A stretch of 46,251 nucleotides of DNA from Loigolactobacillus bifermentans DSM 20003 (GTDB lineage: Bacteria; Bacillota; Bacilli; Lactobacillales; Lactobacillaceae), in NCBI RefSeq assembly GCF_001434575.1, contig NZ_AZDA01000026.1, forward strand, positions 1-46,251, given 5' to 3'. Each line of letters opens with the position of its first letter. Position 1 is the stretch's first letter. The notes under the pieces were generated by a model that saw only the letters and a program-made list of their open reading frames with translations, ran no database searches and was not told the origin of the DNA. Below, one piece after another: positions 29,555 to 46,251 of the stretch. The translations under genes and the position numbers were made by a program.

Positions 29555-30670
29555 TTAAATCAATGCAGGTCGTGTACTAACGGCAACACCCTTAGGCGCC
29601 CAGCCGCAGATCACTGCCCCTGCTGGTACGGTGATCCAACCTAAACCTGCAAAAACCAAGTCACTTTTTTGCTTCGATGTAAATTGGAAACGAACCAGTT
29701 CTGGAAAATCAGCCAATTCTTTGGCACGAGGGGGCTGTAAAAGTTTCCCCGCCTGACGGGCATAAAAATCCGTTGCATTGGCTAATTTTGTCCGGTGAAC
29801 CAGTAAATTATTATCTAAATAAACTGTAAAACTACGCCGTGGGCCACTCACGTAATCAAATCGGGCCAAGCCAGCCAAAAATAACGTTTGTTCAGCGTTG
29901 AGTTGGAATGTTTTAGGCTTAATTGGTTTTTGCGGCGTCACTAATTTTAAATCCTTTGGGCCAAGGTAATAAGCCATTTGTTCCCGATGAATGATCCCTG
30001 GTGTATCAATTAATTGCTGCCCATCTGCTAACGGAATCTGAATTTGATCCAAAGTTGTCCCTGGAAAACGAGACGTGGTAATTAAATCTTGGGTCCCATT
30101 TGCTTGTTTAATGATTTTGTTGATCAACGTCGACTTGCCAACATTGGTCACGCCCACCACATAAACGTCTTTCCCATCACGATAATGGTCAATTGCCGCC
30201 AGCAATTCATCTAGCGCATAACCACTTTTCGCACTGGTCAAACAAACATCAACTGGCCGCAAGCCAGCCTGATGTGCCTGTTGTCGCAACCACTGCTTTA
30301 CTTTTGAACGCTTCACTGAGGTTGGCAAAACATCAACTTTATTGCCCACCAATAAAACCGGATTATCACCCACAAAGCGGTGTAACCCTGGAATTAAACT
30401 TCCTGAAAAGTCAAAAATATCCACCACATTAACGATCAACGCGTCAGCATCACCAATTTGTGTCAATAATTTCAAAAAATCATCATCTGTTAATTTAACA
30501 TCTGAGATTTCATTATAATGCCGTAAACGGAAGCAACGTTGGCAATACAACTCAGTTTCATCTGTATCTTGCTTTAACGCAGCAGCCGGGGTATAACCAG
30601 GTTGCTTTGGATCAGTGGTTTGAATCTGGGCACCACAACCAATACAATACTGAGGTTCAGTTTCAGTCAT
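29555..30670 (-). CDS. yqeH: Ribosome-assembly GTPase YqeH
   Basis: The 371-residue circularly permuted GTPase has an N-terminal zinc finger (CIGCGAQI ... CQRCFRLRHYN), then G4 (VGNKVDVLP), G5 (LTSAKSGY), G1 (VVGVTNVGKSTLIN) and G3 (LIDTPGI) in permuted order, and a C-terminal domain. Bacillus YqeH is needed for 30S assembly. Its ATG overlaps the yqeG end by eight bases. Confidence 0.96.
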   Translation of the reverse strand: MTETEPQYCIGCGAQIQTTDPKQPGYTPAAALKQDTDETELYCQRCFRLRHYNEISDVKLTDDDFLKLLTQIGDADALIVNVVDIFDFSGSLIPGLHRFVGDNPVLLVGNKVDVLPTSVKRSKVKQWLRQQAHQAGLRPVDVCLTSAKSGYALDELLAAIDHYRDGKDVYVVGVTNVGKSTLINKIIKQANGTQDLITTSRFPGTTLDQIQIPLADGQQLIDTPGIIHREQMAYYLGPKDLKLVTPQKPIKPKTFQLNAEQTLFLAGLARFDYVSGPRRSFTVYLDNNLLVHRTKLANATDFYARQAGKLLQPPRAKELADFPELVRFQFTSKQKSDLVFAGLGWITVPAGAVICGWAPKGVAVSTRPALI

Positions 30671-31190
30671 TAAGGGAATTCCTCCATTTTAAGTCAGGAT
30701 ACTTACGTTTCAAATGATTTCTAAAAAAACGTTCAAAAAAACGTGTGATCCGCGTGTTCCAAGCATCGGTTTCAACCAACGGTTTCACTAAAACAGGCCG
30801 AATATGCACCCAGTTTGCCGCAATCATGTCGGTTAATAGCTGATCCCCAACCATTACCAGTTCATGATCTGCTAGACCCAGTTGCTTTTTAGCCCGCATT
30901 AAGCCAAATGGCAATGGCTTTAACGCACGCGCAATAAAAGGCAACCCAAGTGCCGTCACTGCACGATGAATACGCCGGGCATTGTTATTTGAAACCACCA
31001 CCACCTGAATTTGTGCATCAGCCATGGTTTGCAACCACGCTTTTAATTCAGGCGTACCTGTCGGGTGATTCCAAGCAATCAGTGTGTTGTCTAAATCCGT
31101 TAGCACAACTTTGATACCTTGGGCTTGTAAATCCGTGGGGGTTAACTGTGTAATTGAATTTAACATCCAAGTCGGTTTATATAACAGCAT
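30663..31190 (-). CDS. yqeG: YqeG-family HAD phosphatase
   Basis: The 175-residue HAD hydrolase belongs to the YqeG (HAD-IIIA) group: VVLTDLDNTLIAWNHPTGTP holds the nucleophile aspartate, VVVVSNNNARR motif II, and VMVGDQLLTDMIAAN motif III/IV. Its substrate is unknown, but the gene always precedes yqeH. The ATG at 31190 lies six bases after AGGAG; this ribosome site is the terminal part of the 95-bp tandem array upstream, so the array forms the immediate 5' leader of the gene. Confidence 0.93.
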   Translation of the reverse strand: MLLYKPTWMLNSITQLTPTDLQAQGIKVVLTDLDNTLIAWNHPTGTPELKAWLQTMADAQIQVVVVSNNNARRIHRAVTALGLPFIARALKPLPFGLMRAKKQLGLADHELVMVGDQLLTDMIAANWVHIRPVLVKPLVETDAWNTRITRFFERFFRNHLKRKYPDLKWRNSLND

Positions 31191-31192
31191 CT

Positions 31193-31620
31193 GCAACTCC
31201 TACATTAAGGTGGCTTTACACTCGTAAAGCCTTGATTACCGGAGCATGACCATTCCTGCGGGCGCAATCTCCCTCGCAGGAAACATGGCAACTCCTACAT
31301 TAAGGTGGCTTTACACTCGTAAAGTCTTGATTACCGGAGCATGACCATTCCTGCGGGCGCAATCTCCCTCGCAGGAAACATGGCAACTCCTACATTAAGA
31401 TGGCTTTACACTCGTAAAGCTTTGATTACCGGAGTATGACCATTCTTGTGGCAGCAGTTCTCACCGCAAGAAACATGGCAACTCCTACATTATGGTTGCT
31501 TTACACTCGTAAAGCTTCGATTACCGGAGCATGTCCATTCTTGTGGCGGCAGTTCTCACCGCAAGAAGCATGGCAACTCCTACATTAAGCTTGGTTTACC
31601 TTCACAAAGCTTAGCCGAAC
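31193..31620. repeat. Tandem array: four 95-bp units plus a degenerate fifth
   Basis: Units begin at 31193, 31288, 31383 and 31478; a degenerate fifth begins at 31573. Units 1 and 2 differ at one base (C or T in the right arm of the first hairpin). Units 3 and 4 differ more but keep two inverted repeats: GGCTTTAC actc GTAAAGCC, and TTCCTGCG...CGCAGGAA (units 1-2) or TTCTTGTGG...CCGCAAGAA (units 3-4). On the minus strand each boundary reads AGGAGTTGCCATG and opens a 16-codon frame ending CTCCGGTAA (starts 31286, 31381, 31476, 31571). On the plus strand an ATG frame of about 19 codons also recurs. The array fills the leader of yqeG. No known family recognised. Confidence 0.95.
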
Positions 31621-44739: not shown

Positions 44740-46251
44740 TTAACGGTTTTCTAAAGCTATCAAATCGTCCGGCGTAAAGTAAACGTCCCGCGGTTTTGAA
44801 CCACTGGCAGGCGAAATAAACTTCCGTGTTTCAAGGTCGTCGATCAGGCTAGCTGCACGATTGTAGCCGATTTTAAATTCACGTTGCAATTTCGATGTGG
44901 AAATTTGCTTTTCTGCTGCTAAATAACGCAACACATCTGGGAATAATTCGTCTTGGTTCGCCTGCTCCGTTGCCTGTTGCAAAAGGCCATCTGGTTCAAA
45001 CAAATAATGCGGTGGCAATTGCTGCTTCACAAATGCCACGATCTCATCGATTTCTTGTTCCGCGTAAGTGCCTTGGATCCGCACTGGCTGACTTTGACCG
45101 TTACCCAGGTACAACATATCCCCTCGACCTAATAGCCGTTCGGCACCGCCTTGATCAATAATCGTGCGCGAATCAATTTGACTGGATACCATAAAGGCAA
45201 TTCGCGTTGGAATATTATTTTTAATGGTCCCGGTAATAATATCCACACTTGGCCGTTGGGTGGCGACAATCAAATGAATCCCCGCTGCCCGTGCCTTTTG
45301 TGTGATCCGCACAATGTAATCTTGAACTTCTGTTGACGCCACCATCATTAAGTCTGCTAATTCATCAATAATGATCACGATGTACGGTAATTTCAACCCA
45401 TAATCACCATGGTCTGCTGCCTTACGGTTAAACTGTTCTAAATTACGCACACCCGCTGCTGCTAACTTCTGATACCGTTCTTCCATTTCTTCAACAGCCC
45501 ACTTTAAAGCCGCCGAAGCCGCTTTAGGATCAGAGATCACCGGTGACAATAAATGTGGTAATTCATTATACGGCGCTAATTCCACCGCCTTTGGATCGAT
45601 CAACAATAATTTTACTTCAGATGGTTTGGCCTTAAATAAAATCGATAATAACAAACTGTTGATGAAGACACTCTTACCCGAACCGGTAGCGCCAGCAATT
45701 AAACCATGTGGCATTTTCGCAATATTGGTGACCATAGGCTGCCCAAATAAATCCACCCCTAGTGCAATCGTCAGTGGCGATTGACTTTGCGCAAATTTTT
45801 CTGAACGCACCACTTCCGATAACATCACAGGACGAGATTTTAAATTAGGAATCTCAATCCCCACCGTTGACTTACCAGGAATTGGGGCTTCAATTCGAAT
45901 ATCCTTGGCCGCTAATGCCAATTTCAAATCATCACTGAGATTGGTGATCTTATTGACCTTCACACCACGCGATAAGGTTAATTCAAATTGCGTGACGGCC
46001 GGGCCAATGCTCCAACGACTGACCACTGCCTTCACGTTAAAAGCGTTTAACGTTTCATTTAACACGGTGCGTTGGTGTTGGACCCAGGCCGCCATTTCAC
46101 TACTATTGGTGGTTAATGGGTCGGGTAACAGGCTAAGTGGGGGCATTTGATAGCCACTTTCATCCACCTGTGGCAAAGCCGTGGTTTTGGCCACTGTTGC
46201 GGGCTGTTCCGTTGCGGGCTGTTCCGTTGCGGGCTGTTCCGTTGCGGGCTG
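44740..46251 (-). CDS. ftsK: DNA translocase FtsK/SpoIIIE, 5' part beyond the window
   Basis: A frame of at least 503 residues runs off the right edge, so the N-terminal membrane domain is not seen. The visible part starts in a PATEQ-repeat linker, then the motor: alpha/beta domains with Walker A LIAGATGSGKSVFINSLLLS, Walker B YIVIIIDELADLMMVA, and IRITQKARAAGIHLIVATQR-like sequence, and the gamma winged helix at the end (LQREFKIGYNRAASLIDDLE). It pumps chromosome DNA at the septum. A GTG at 46194 is internal, not the start. Confidence 0.95.
   Translation of the reverse strand, partial: QPATEQPATEQPATEQPATVAKTTALPQVDESGYQMPPLSLLPDPLTTNSSEMAAWVQHQRTVLNETLNAFNVKAVVSRWSIGPAVTQFELTLSRGVKVNKITNLSDDLKLALAAKDIRIEAPIPGKSTVGIEIPNLKSRPVMLSEVVRSEKFAQSQSPLTIALGVDLFGQPMVTNIAKMPHGLIAGATGSGKSVFINSLLLSILFKAKPSEVKLLLIDPKAVELAPYNELPHLLSPVISDPKAASAALKWAVEEMEERYQKLAAAGVRNLEQFNRKAADHGDYGLKLPYIVIIIDELADLMMVASTEVQDYIVRITQKARAAGIHLIVATQRPSVDIITGTIKNNIPTRIAFMVSSQIDSRTIIDQGGAERLLGRGDMLYLGNGQSQPVRIQGTYAEQEIDEIVAFVKQQLPPHYLFEPDGLLQQATEQANQDELFPDVLRYLAAEKQISTSKLQREFKIGYNRAASLIDDLETRKFISPASGSKPRDVYFTPDDLIALENR
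46196..46251. repeat. 15-bp tandem repeat in the ftsK linker
   Basis: GTTGCGGGCTGTTCC repeats three times (46196, 46211, 46226) and a fourth copy is cut by the edge. In the ftsK frame it encodes Pro-Ala-Thr-Glu-Gln repeats. The copies are identical at the base level, so the number may vary between strains. Confidence 0.9.

Follow-up and report, generated by a model that had tools for sequence, protein, structure and literature searches.

A mobile-looking repeat found mainly at Shine-Dalgarno sequences probably forms the tandem array upstream of yqeG in Loigolactobacillus bifermentans

The pneumococcal BOX is a small, non-coding, structured and dispersed repeat, and the number of its tandem inner modules varies between strains (PMC3049150). 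Its authors judged it to be parasitic. It has TIRs and TSDs and is over-represented between convergent genes (Table 1 of PMC3049150), the kind of place where little is at stake and where small mobile repeats often persist. The REP or GTAG-tagged palindromes, described together with RAYTs, are short imperfect palindromes with a tag just before them, and they occur in many copies and in tandem groups (PMC3733652, PMC8266576). RAYTs are reported for GTAG families, and REPs lie mainly downstream of coding regions, often in mutually opposite orientation (PMC3733652); neither 'Lactobacillus' nor 'Firmicutes' occurs in the main text of that paper. In IS200/IS605 elements, each palindrome is preceded on its 5' side by a guide that base-pairs with the cleavage site, and a change of guide retargets the element (PMC8266576).

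We analysed a window of 46,251 nucleotides from L. bifermentans DSM 20003 (the whole stretch, positions 1 to 46,251 of contig NZ_AZDA01000026.1), in which a tandem array lies upstream of yqeG. Our results suggest that this array is probably built from stacked copies of a mobile-looking, non-coding repeat (about 95-110 bp); in its own genome, this repeat is found mainly at Shine-Dalgarno (SD) sequences. Such a genome-wide repeat would account for the array without calling for a role peculiar to yqeG. The repeat is like BOX in being small, non-coding, structured, dispersed and variable in tandem number, but its ends are direct rather than inverted. Compared by description, it also differs from BOX in preceding starts in one orientation and in ending in the SD of the gene (PMC3049150). 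It shares with the REPs the short imperfect palindrome, the high copy number, the grouping in tandem and a tag before the palindrome (AGGAGG here, GTAG or ATAG in relatives). Unlike REPs, it is arranged head-to-tail, lies before starts, has two hairpins per unit and coexists with a Y1 enzyme in 2 of 8 genomes. The unit ends form a direct repeat (AGGAGG) and, unlike in a classical MITE, no terminal inverted repeats were seen by inspection. No description of the repeat or of an SD-targeted element was found in the open-access literature at title and abstract level, and at that level an earlier note on this DNA was right to call it a structured repeat without previous description.

The tandem array between rplT and yqeG

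The array is located between rplT (L20; 31768-32124, NCBIfam) and yqeG (YqeG family HAD IIIA phosphatase; 30663-31190, NCBIfam TIGR01668), and both genes are on the same minus strand as the array. TRF reported a repeat at 31193-31589 with a period of 95, 4.2 copies, 92% matches and zero indels. Together with sequence and covariance searches it defined four 95-bp units of the dispersed element at 31193-31572 (31193-31287, 31288-31382, 31383-31477 and 31478-31572), whose identities to the first unit are 100, 99, 88 and 84% in coordinate order. The left edge of the array is a degenerate leading piece at 31573-31620 (minus strand; sequence match and inspection by eye), which holds a second hairpin and an SD without a first hairpin; its match, at 31573-31610, is limited to unit positions 58-95 with 82% identity. 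TRF and the unit alignment thus bore out the four units and degenerate fifth that the earlier note had described, and the alignment also agreed with its statement that units 1 and 2 are one base apart. The changed base, in unit 2, weakens the hairpin GGCTTTACGAGTGTAAAGCC.

In the yqeG-proximal unit, again on the minus strand, folding and covariation placed the first hairpin (hp1) at 31248-31289 (GCCATGTTTCCTGCG...CGCAGGAATGGTC, whose covarying stem is bulged at the foot) and the second hairpin (hp2, GGCTTTACGAGTGTAAAGCC) at 31212-31231. Covariation also marked an anti-SD, guide-like GCTCC at 31241-31245. The terminal TAGGAGT of the array (31196-31202) provides the SD of yqeG: on the transcribed minus strand, 6 nt separate its AGGAG (31201-31197) from the ATG (31190-31188), which is the ribosome-binding site that had been proposed. 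Single units folded with only mild extra stability compared with shuffled sequences (z -2.24, -1.29, -0.91 and -1.52), and it is the covariation among copies that carries the argument for structure. The earlier note's claim that both arms of one hairpin, the one other than GGCTTTACGAGTGTAAAGCC, had changed in a matching way was correct in that covarying changes are present, but units 3 and 4 retain a C.A mismatch on the transcribed strand. Within the own genome, the second-hairpin sequence TTTACGAGTGTAAA is confined to the four units of the yqeG array and is a feature particular to this copy. The rplT terminator is recognisable by eye (AGTTGCGGCGTTTGCCGCAACTTTTTTT); a consensus scan for terminators and promoters reported neither this terminator nor any promoter. 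At the far end of the window, a perfect 15-bp tandem repeat, GTTGCGGGCTGTTCC, occupies 46196-46251 in 3.7 copies and reaches the contig end.

Dispersal, architecture and covariation of the unit

When one unit was used as query, 27 matches were obtained in the own genome at E<=10, and 17 lay outside the array at E<0.03. The latter covered mostly the first half of the unit, and their loci proved to hold the whole plan, often in tandem. A covariance model, R1, was then built from 31 units. It gave at least 150 matches at E<=1 in the own genome (the best 150 of 1212 candidates); 150 is also the number of candidates scored, so the true number of matches may be higher. Grouping of 145 of these best 150 matches, with five weak partial ones left out, gave at least 78 arrays of 1-5 units. 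Among the listed matches, 34 arrays were single, 27 double and 12 triple, 4 had four units, the yqeG array being one of them, and 1 had five. A covariance search of the kind that the earlier note had proposed, run here on the own genome, found the unit in abundance, but dispersed and not bound to yqeG. No opposite-strand pair within 1 kb was seen among the 78 listed arrays, which were clustered by strand, and thus no inverted pairs of the REPIN/BIME kind. Rfam gave 0 matches in the window at the gathering cut-off, with the lower-scoring rows far below the family cut-offs, and at 17 loci of relatives it reported one SAM riboswitch and one SRP RNA and nothing else. A known Rfam element was rejected, as the repeat had no match in the window or at these 17 loci.

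The yqeG leaders of relatives are unit-free as far as they were scanned: a unit motif within 432 nt of the start was found in 0 of 20 leaders (from L. rennini and 19 genomes of other genera; 20 of 30 leaders were taken in). With at least 78 arrays in the own genome, the view of the array as a leader that belongs specifically to the yqeG operon is not supported; what was found is largely a scattered repeat with no special link to yqeG, and a yqeG-specific regulatory array was rejected. The same results bear on local tandem duplication (slippage, as in a minisatellite) of a native yqeG leader whose ribosome-binding site ended up at its end by chance. Such a duplication would fit the near-identity of units 1 and 2, the hp2 sequence private to this locus and the differing unit numbers at other loci of sister species (below). 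The same unit plan, however, is present in 77 other listed arrays, and the scanned leaders of relatives hold no units, which refutes slippage as the origin and makes it hardly credible in that role. It is the likely cause of changes in unit number.

In gene direction, the unit reads hp1 (GCCATG...hairpin...ATGGNC), CATCCTCC, hp2, TTTAGGAGG, or in short form hairpin 1, CCTCC, hairpin 2, AGGAGG. Read in the direction of yqeG, the segment between the hairpins is also given as CATGCTCC and the one after hp2 as AATGTAGGAG. hp1 forms an imperfect, bulged palindrome, and no guide was recognised by eye between AGGAGG and hp1. In the alignment of 31 units (A2), 95.9% of cells were paired versus 86.6% after shuffling, and 13 of 24 pairs had changed on both sides. 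For 95 distinct units (A3, an alignment fitted to model R1) the values were 94.8% versus 84.7%, with 18 of 24 pairs changed on both sides. The non-pairs of hp1 on the gene-sense strand were A.C in 55 cells versus G.T in 10; this excess, most of which lies in three or four columns, would hint at the antisense strand or at few founder changes.

The pairing of CCTCC was also quantified. In A2 (own genome), it paired with the downstream SD in 154 of 155 cells and with the upstream SD in 119 of 155, the latter figure including first units with a non-repeat left flank. The CCTCC-GGAGG helix showed 96.0% pairing in A3 (own genome only), which measures complementarity and not cleavage. CCTCC therefore tracks the SD downstream of it and not the one upstream. 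Arrays with unlike neighbours were the most telling, for example one with GCTGG upstream, CCTTC in the unit and GAAGG downstream. The ends of the repeat differ in other species, where GTGGAGTAG, GTGAAGTAG or GCGGAATAG takes the place of AGGAGG; there, no pairing between the end and the segment that follows hp1 was evident by eye. Covariation of this kind, together with that of hp1, would be expected of a cis-regulatory RNA in which CCTCC masks the SD, hp1 binds a factor, the downstream genes form a regulon and tandem copies tune the response. It includes GAAGG/CCTTC and GCTGG/CCAGC. Since pairing is maintained even at GCTGG, a sequence that has ceased to be an SD, masking of the SD is not the only reason for it.

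Each SD-GCC-ATG of the repeat could also open a short ORF whose translation frees the next SD. The ATG is invariant in 31 of 31 A2 units with an SD ahead of it, and in the yqeG-proximal units the ORF has, by eye, 16 codons and a stop just past the anti-SD. In other unit types, however, the frame (by eye) either closes with TGA at codon 5 or stays open, 12 of the 78 first units have no ATG at the expected place, and the ATG is also part of the conserved hairpin foot. As the frame is not kept (by eye), a set of leader peptides, which the earlier note had offered as an option, is disfavoured; we rejected it as very improbable.

Position at translation starts, and filled and empty sites

An ORF of at least 60 aa begins 2-14 nt past the array end in 61 of the 78 listed arrays. 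A loose random control gave 18%, because start codons occur inside ORFs. When an upstream in-frame stop was required, the count was 53 of 78 arrays versus 149 of 6366 random positions (2.3%), and the mirror test (antisense, other edge) gave 1 of 78. The observation of the earlier note was confirmed and its interpretation partly supported: the tie to translation is real as a link to translation starts, but it is general and not special to yqeG. The position before starts in the sense orientation, with 1 of 78 in the antisense test, is also in favour of the regulatory RNA. Nine downstream ORFs were named with NCBIfam (gyrB, gyrA, rpoC, plsX, serC, fabF, accC, manganese-dependent inorganic pyrophosphatase and aroD); they have no obvious common function, which argues against a regulon. 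Among the 17 arrays without an ORF start at their end, five are inside a composite element. This element, of about 320 bp, was seen in five copies in the own genome (L234, L251, L258, L271 and L281), each holding one unit; it has GGGCCATAAT-like and ATTATGGCCC-like ends, and its inner hairpin arms vary between copies and look complementary by eye.

The left edges were analysed for 66 of the 78 arrays, and 12 were left out as no ATG was found at the expected place in the first unit. The left flank was unlike the repeat in 41 of these 66. Taking a match of at least 5 of 7 positions to AAGGAGG as SD-like, such a flank had an SD-like end in 20 of 26 gene-linked arrays versus 2 of 15 others, and 6.8% of random positions were SD-like. 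Most simply, the array would separate the native SD on its left from the native spacer and start codon on its right, with the SD at the array's end now serving the gene. Survival may account for part of the SD bias. An SD-masking effect was looked for in the fold model and not seen: the predicted SD accessibility had a median of 0.38 with the unit (n=50) versus 0.39 with the flanks joined (n=20), and this unaltered accessibility is a further point against the regulatory RNA.

For the comparison of genomes (G000 being the own genome), the others were taken to be L. backii (G001), L. binensis (G002), L. iwatensis (G004), L. jiayinensis (G005), L. rennini (G006), L. zhaoyuanensis (G007), Lapidilactobacillus bayanensis (G160), Pediococcus damnosus (G177) and P. 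parvulus (G213); by elimination, G003 is presumably L. coryniformis. At rpoC, the own genome has TAGGAGG, the unit, TAGGAGG and TCAGCTAAGTG (TAGGAGG|unit...TAGGAGG|TCAGC). The unit is absent from the rpoC leader in all seven other Loigolactobacillus genomes, and alignments were made for 4 of these relatives. The junction is TAGGAGGTCAGC (TAGGAGGTCAGCTAAGTG), that is TAGGAGG|TCAGC, in G002, G003, G005 and G006, TAAGGAGGTCAGC (TAAGGAGGTCAGCTAAGTG) in G007, and TAGGAGGTCGGC (TAGGAGGTCGGCCAAGTG) in G001 and G004. rpoC is the sole clean empty SD site.

A second filled and empty site is nested in a longer dispersed element of L. backii and L. iwatensis, where TTCCTG[CT]G[CG]T|TAG was seen in 4 distinct empty and 14 distinct filled forms. 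The junction there is GGT|TAG and the unit ends in GCGGAATAG; target and unit end are alike again, but there is no SD. As for a candidate target site duplication, TAGGAGG flanks the unit on either side at rpoC, but about 1 nt is shared at the nested site. The longer element itself (e.g. L088, L099, L138 and L416) has the unit at two different inner positions, filled and empty.

L. backii and L. iwatensis have 14 of the 19 L. backii arrays in common, and the unit number, counted by R1, differs at 4 of these 14 (1/2, 5/3, 1/2 and 1/2). For 6 of 10 unpaired loci, the joined flanks were searched in both sister genomes. At hisB, asp23 and the L412 locus, where the own copy of L412 is truncated, the unit-free sister retains the R tail and the SD. 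This pattern, read from the sequence, would fit deletion between direct repeats as well as insertion. The partner of L382 is at contig ends, and L406 and L407 had no partner among the matches listed. L382, in L. backii, has 7 units with a period of 101 and is the longest array seen; its L. iwatensis partner lies at the ends of contigs C5 and C6.

Matches were found in 8 of 8 Loigolactobacillus genomes. Of 301 genomes of the family, 12 contained the core pattern GCCATGTTTCN{18,24}GAATGGNCA, and these belong to 3 of 40 genera (all 8 Loigolactobacillus, one genome taken as Lapidilactobacillus and three of a genus taken as Pediococcus), and the reversed control pattern gave zero matches across the 301 genomes. 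L. coryniformis has its own array set: 14 of 17 inspected loci were parsed, and all 14 have the start of an ORF (at least 50 aa) at a distance of 66-81 nt past hp1 (a raw count with no random control). Across 63 leader regions of relatives for 10 array-bearing genes, several of them short or offset from the start, a unit-like repeat was seen by eye only at gyrB and serC of L. coryniformis and at fabF of L. jiayinensis. The upstream copy at gyrB of L. coryniformis is antisense. The one before fabF of L. jiayinensis (L317) is a tandem repeat of different sequence and similar plan (hairpin, CATCC, hairpin TTTCTGGTAACAGAAA, GTAGGAG), located just ahead of the start codon; it is perhaps a further family. 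The presence in all eight genomes would suit the regulatory RNA. Its gene sets, however, vary by species (yqeG 0/20, rpoC 0/7, few of the 63 leaders), although the sister species nevertheless have most L. backii arrays in common, and Rfam offers no match for the window or for the repeats at the 17 relative loci. The RNA regulon is thus the main rival but a weakened one, and we consider it unlikely.

A putative route of spread and its enzyme

If the array is a stack of mobile-looking repeats, its units would move by insertion rather than by copying recombination. A unit would insert directly 3' of the gene's own AGGAGG, between the SD and the start codon, and, ending in AGGAGG itself, would regenerate the SD. 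With this second AGGAGG after the native one, the SD-to-start distance would be kept and the gene would still be translatable. The terminal SD would also be a fresh landing site, which would explain the head-to-tail arrays, and recombination between stacked units would then alter their number. yqeG may simply have acquired four units at little cost. Points against this reading are that a Y1 transposase was found in 2 of 8 element-bearing genomes, that rpoC is the one clean empty SD site, that 17 of the 78 listed arrays lack an ORF start at their end while the loose random control reached 18%, that the repeat has other ends and no evident end pairing in other species, and that the gyrB copy of L. 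coryniformis is antisense.

A more specific version, that of a transposable repeat targeting the SD itself, with the anti-SD CCTCC guiding it to AGGAGG, the ribosome-binding site rebuilt and the unit stacking on itself, is tentative, and we regard it as rather less than an even chance. If true, it would be a parasite that does little damage as it spreads via the translation starts of essential operons, rewriting dozens of 5' leaders, and relatives that end in other sequences would represent retargeted forms. The repeat may be filed as a miniature mobile-looking repeat and a putative guided, SD-targeted element. Its concentration at translation starts, with gyrB, gyrA and rpoC among the genes concerned, suggests a solution for mobile repeats, namely to carry a replacement SD. 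If right, this would be a new kind of target choice. Translation initiation could then be studied on naturally occurring 5' leaders with different numbers of units, and the search for the enzyme that moves the repeat would gain a starting point.

By analogy, the IS200/IS605 ends are the best model for how the repeat could work, and membership in that family fails on the enzyme. The likeness lies in two imperfect hairpins and in a short stretch, located 5' of a hairpin, with complementarity to the end, so that CCTCC may be a guide pairing with the target or cleavage site; beyond guide pairing and retargeting, the comparison draws on general background on the family. Unlike in IS200/IS605, no left guide was seen, no TnpA is consistently present and the target would be AGGAGG. 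AGGAGG as a target of this type was not found in the open-access literature at title and abstract level.

Within the preferred reading of a mobile-looking repeat, an enzyme acting in trans would move the unit. One specific mechanism is that a Y1 (HUH) transposase, present or past, mobilises the unit as a single-strand element of the IS200/IS605 or REP type, with CCTCC 5' of hp2 as right guide and AGGAGG as cleavage or target site. The pairing of CCTCC with the AGGAGG 3' of hp2, the bulged palindrome of hp1 and the guides and retargeting described for IS200/IS605 (PMC8266576) are consistent with it, and head-to-tail stacking follows if the unit end is the target. A search with PF01797 (Y1_Tnp), however, found the transposase in 2 of 8 element-bearing genomes. 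Of the matches in the own genome, one runs across two frames and another contains stops, and no unit was seen by eye in the flanks of the Y1 copy. The lack of a recognisable guide 5' of hp1 and of inverted pairs also argues against this mechanism, which we consider possible but unlikely. The Y1 transposase as a consistent partner was rejected on its occurrence in 2 of 8 genomes. The main Y1 transposase match of the own genome (L025/L027, G000 C119:54660-55017) gave its HMM match in two pieces, and the gene may be frameshifted.
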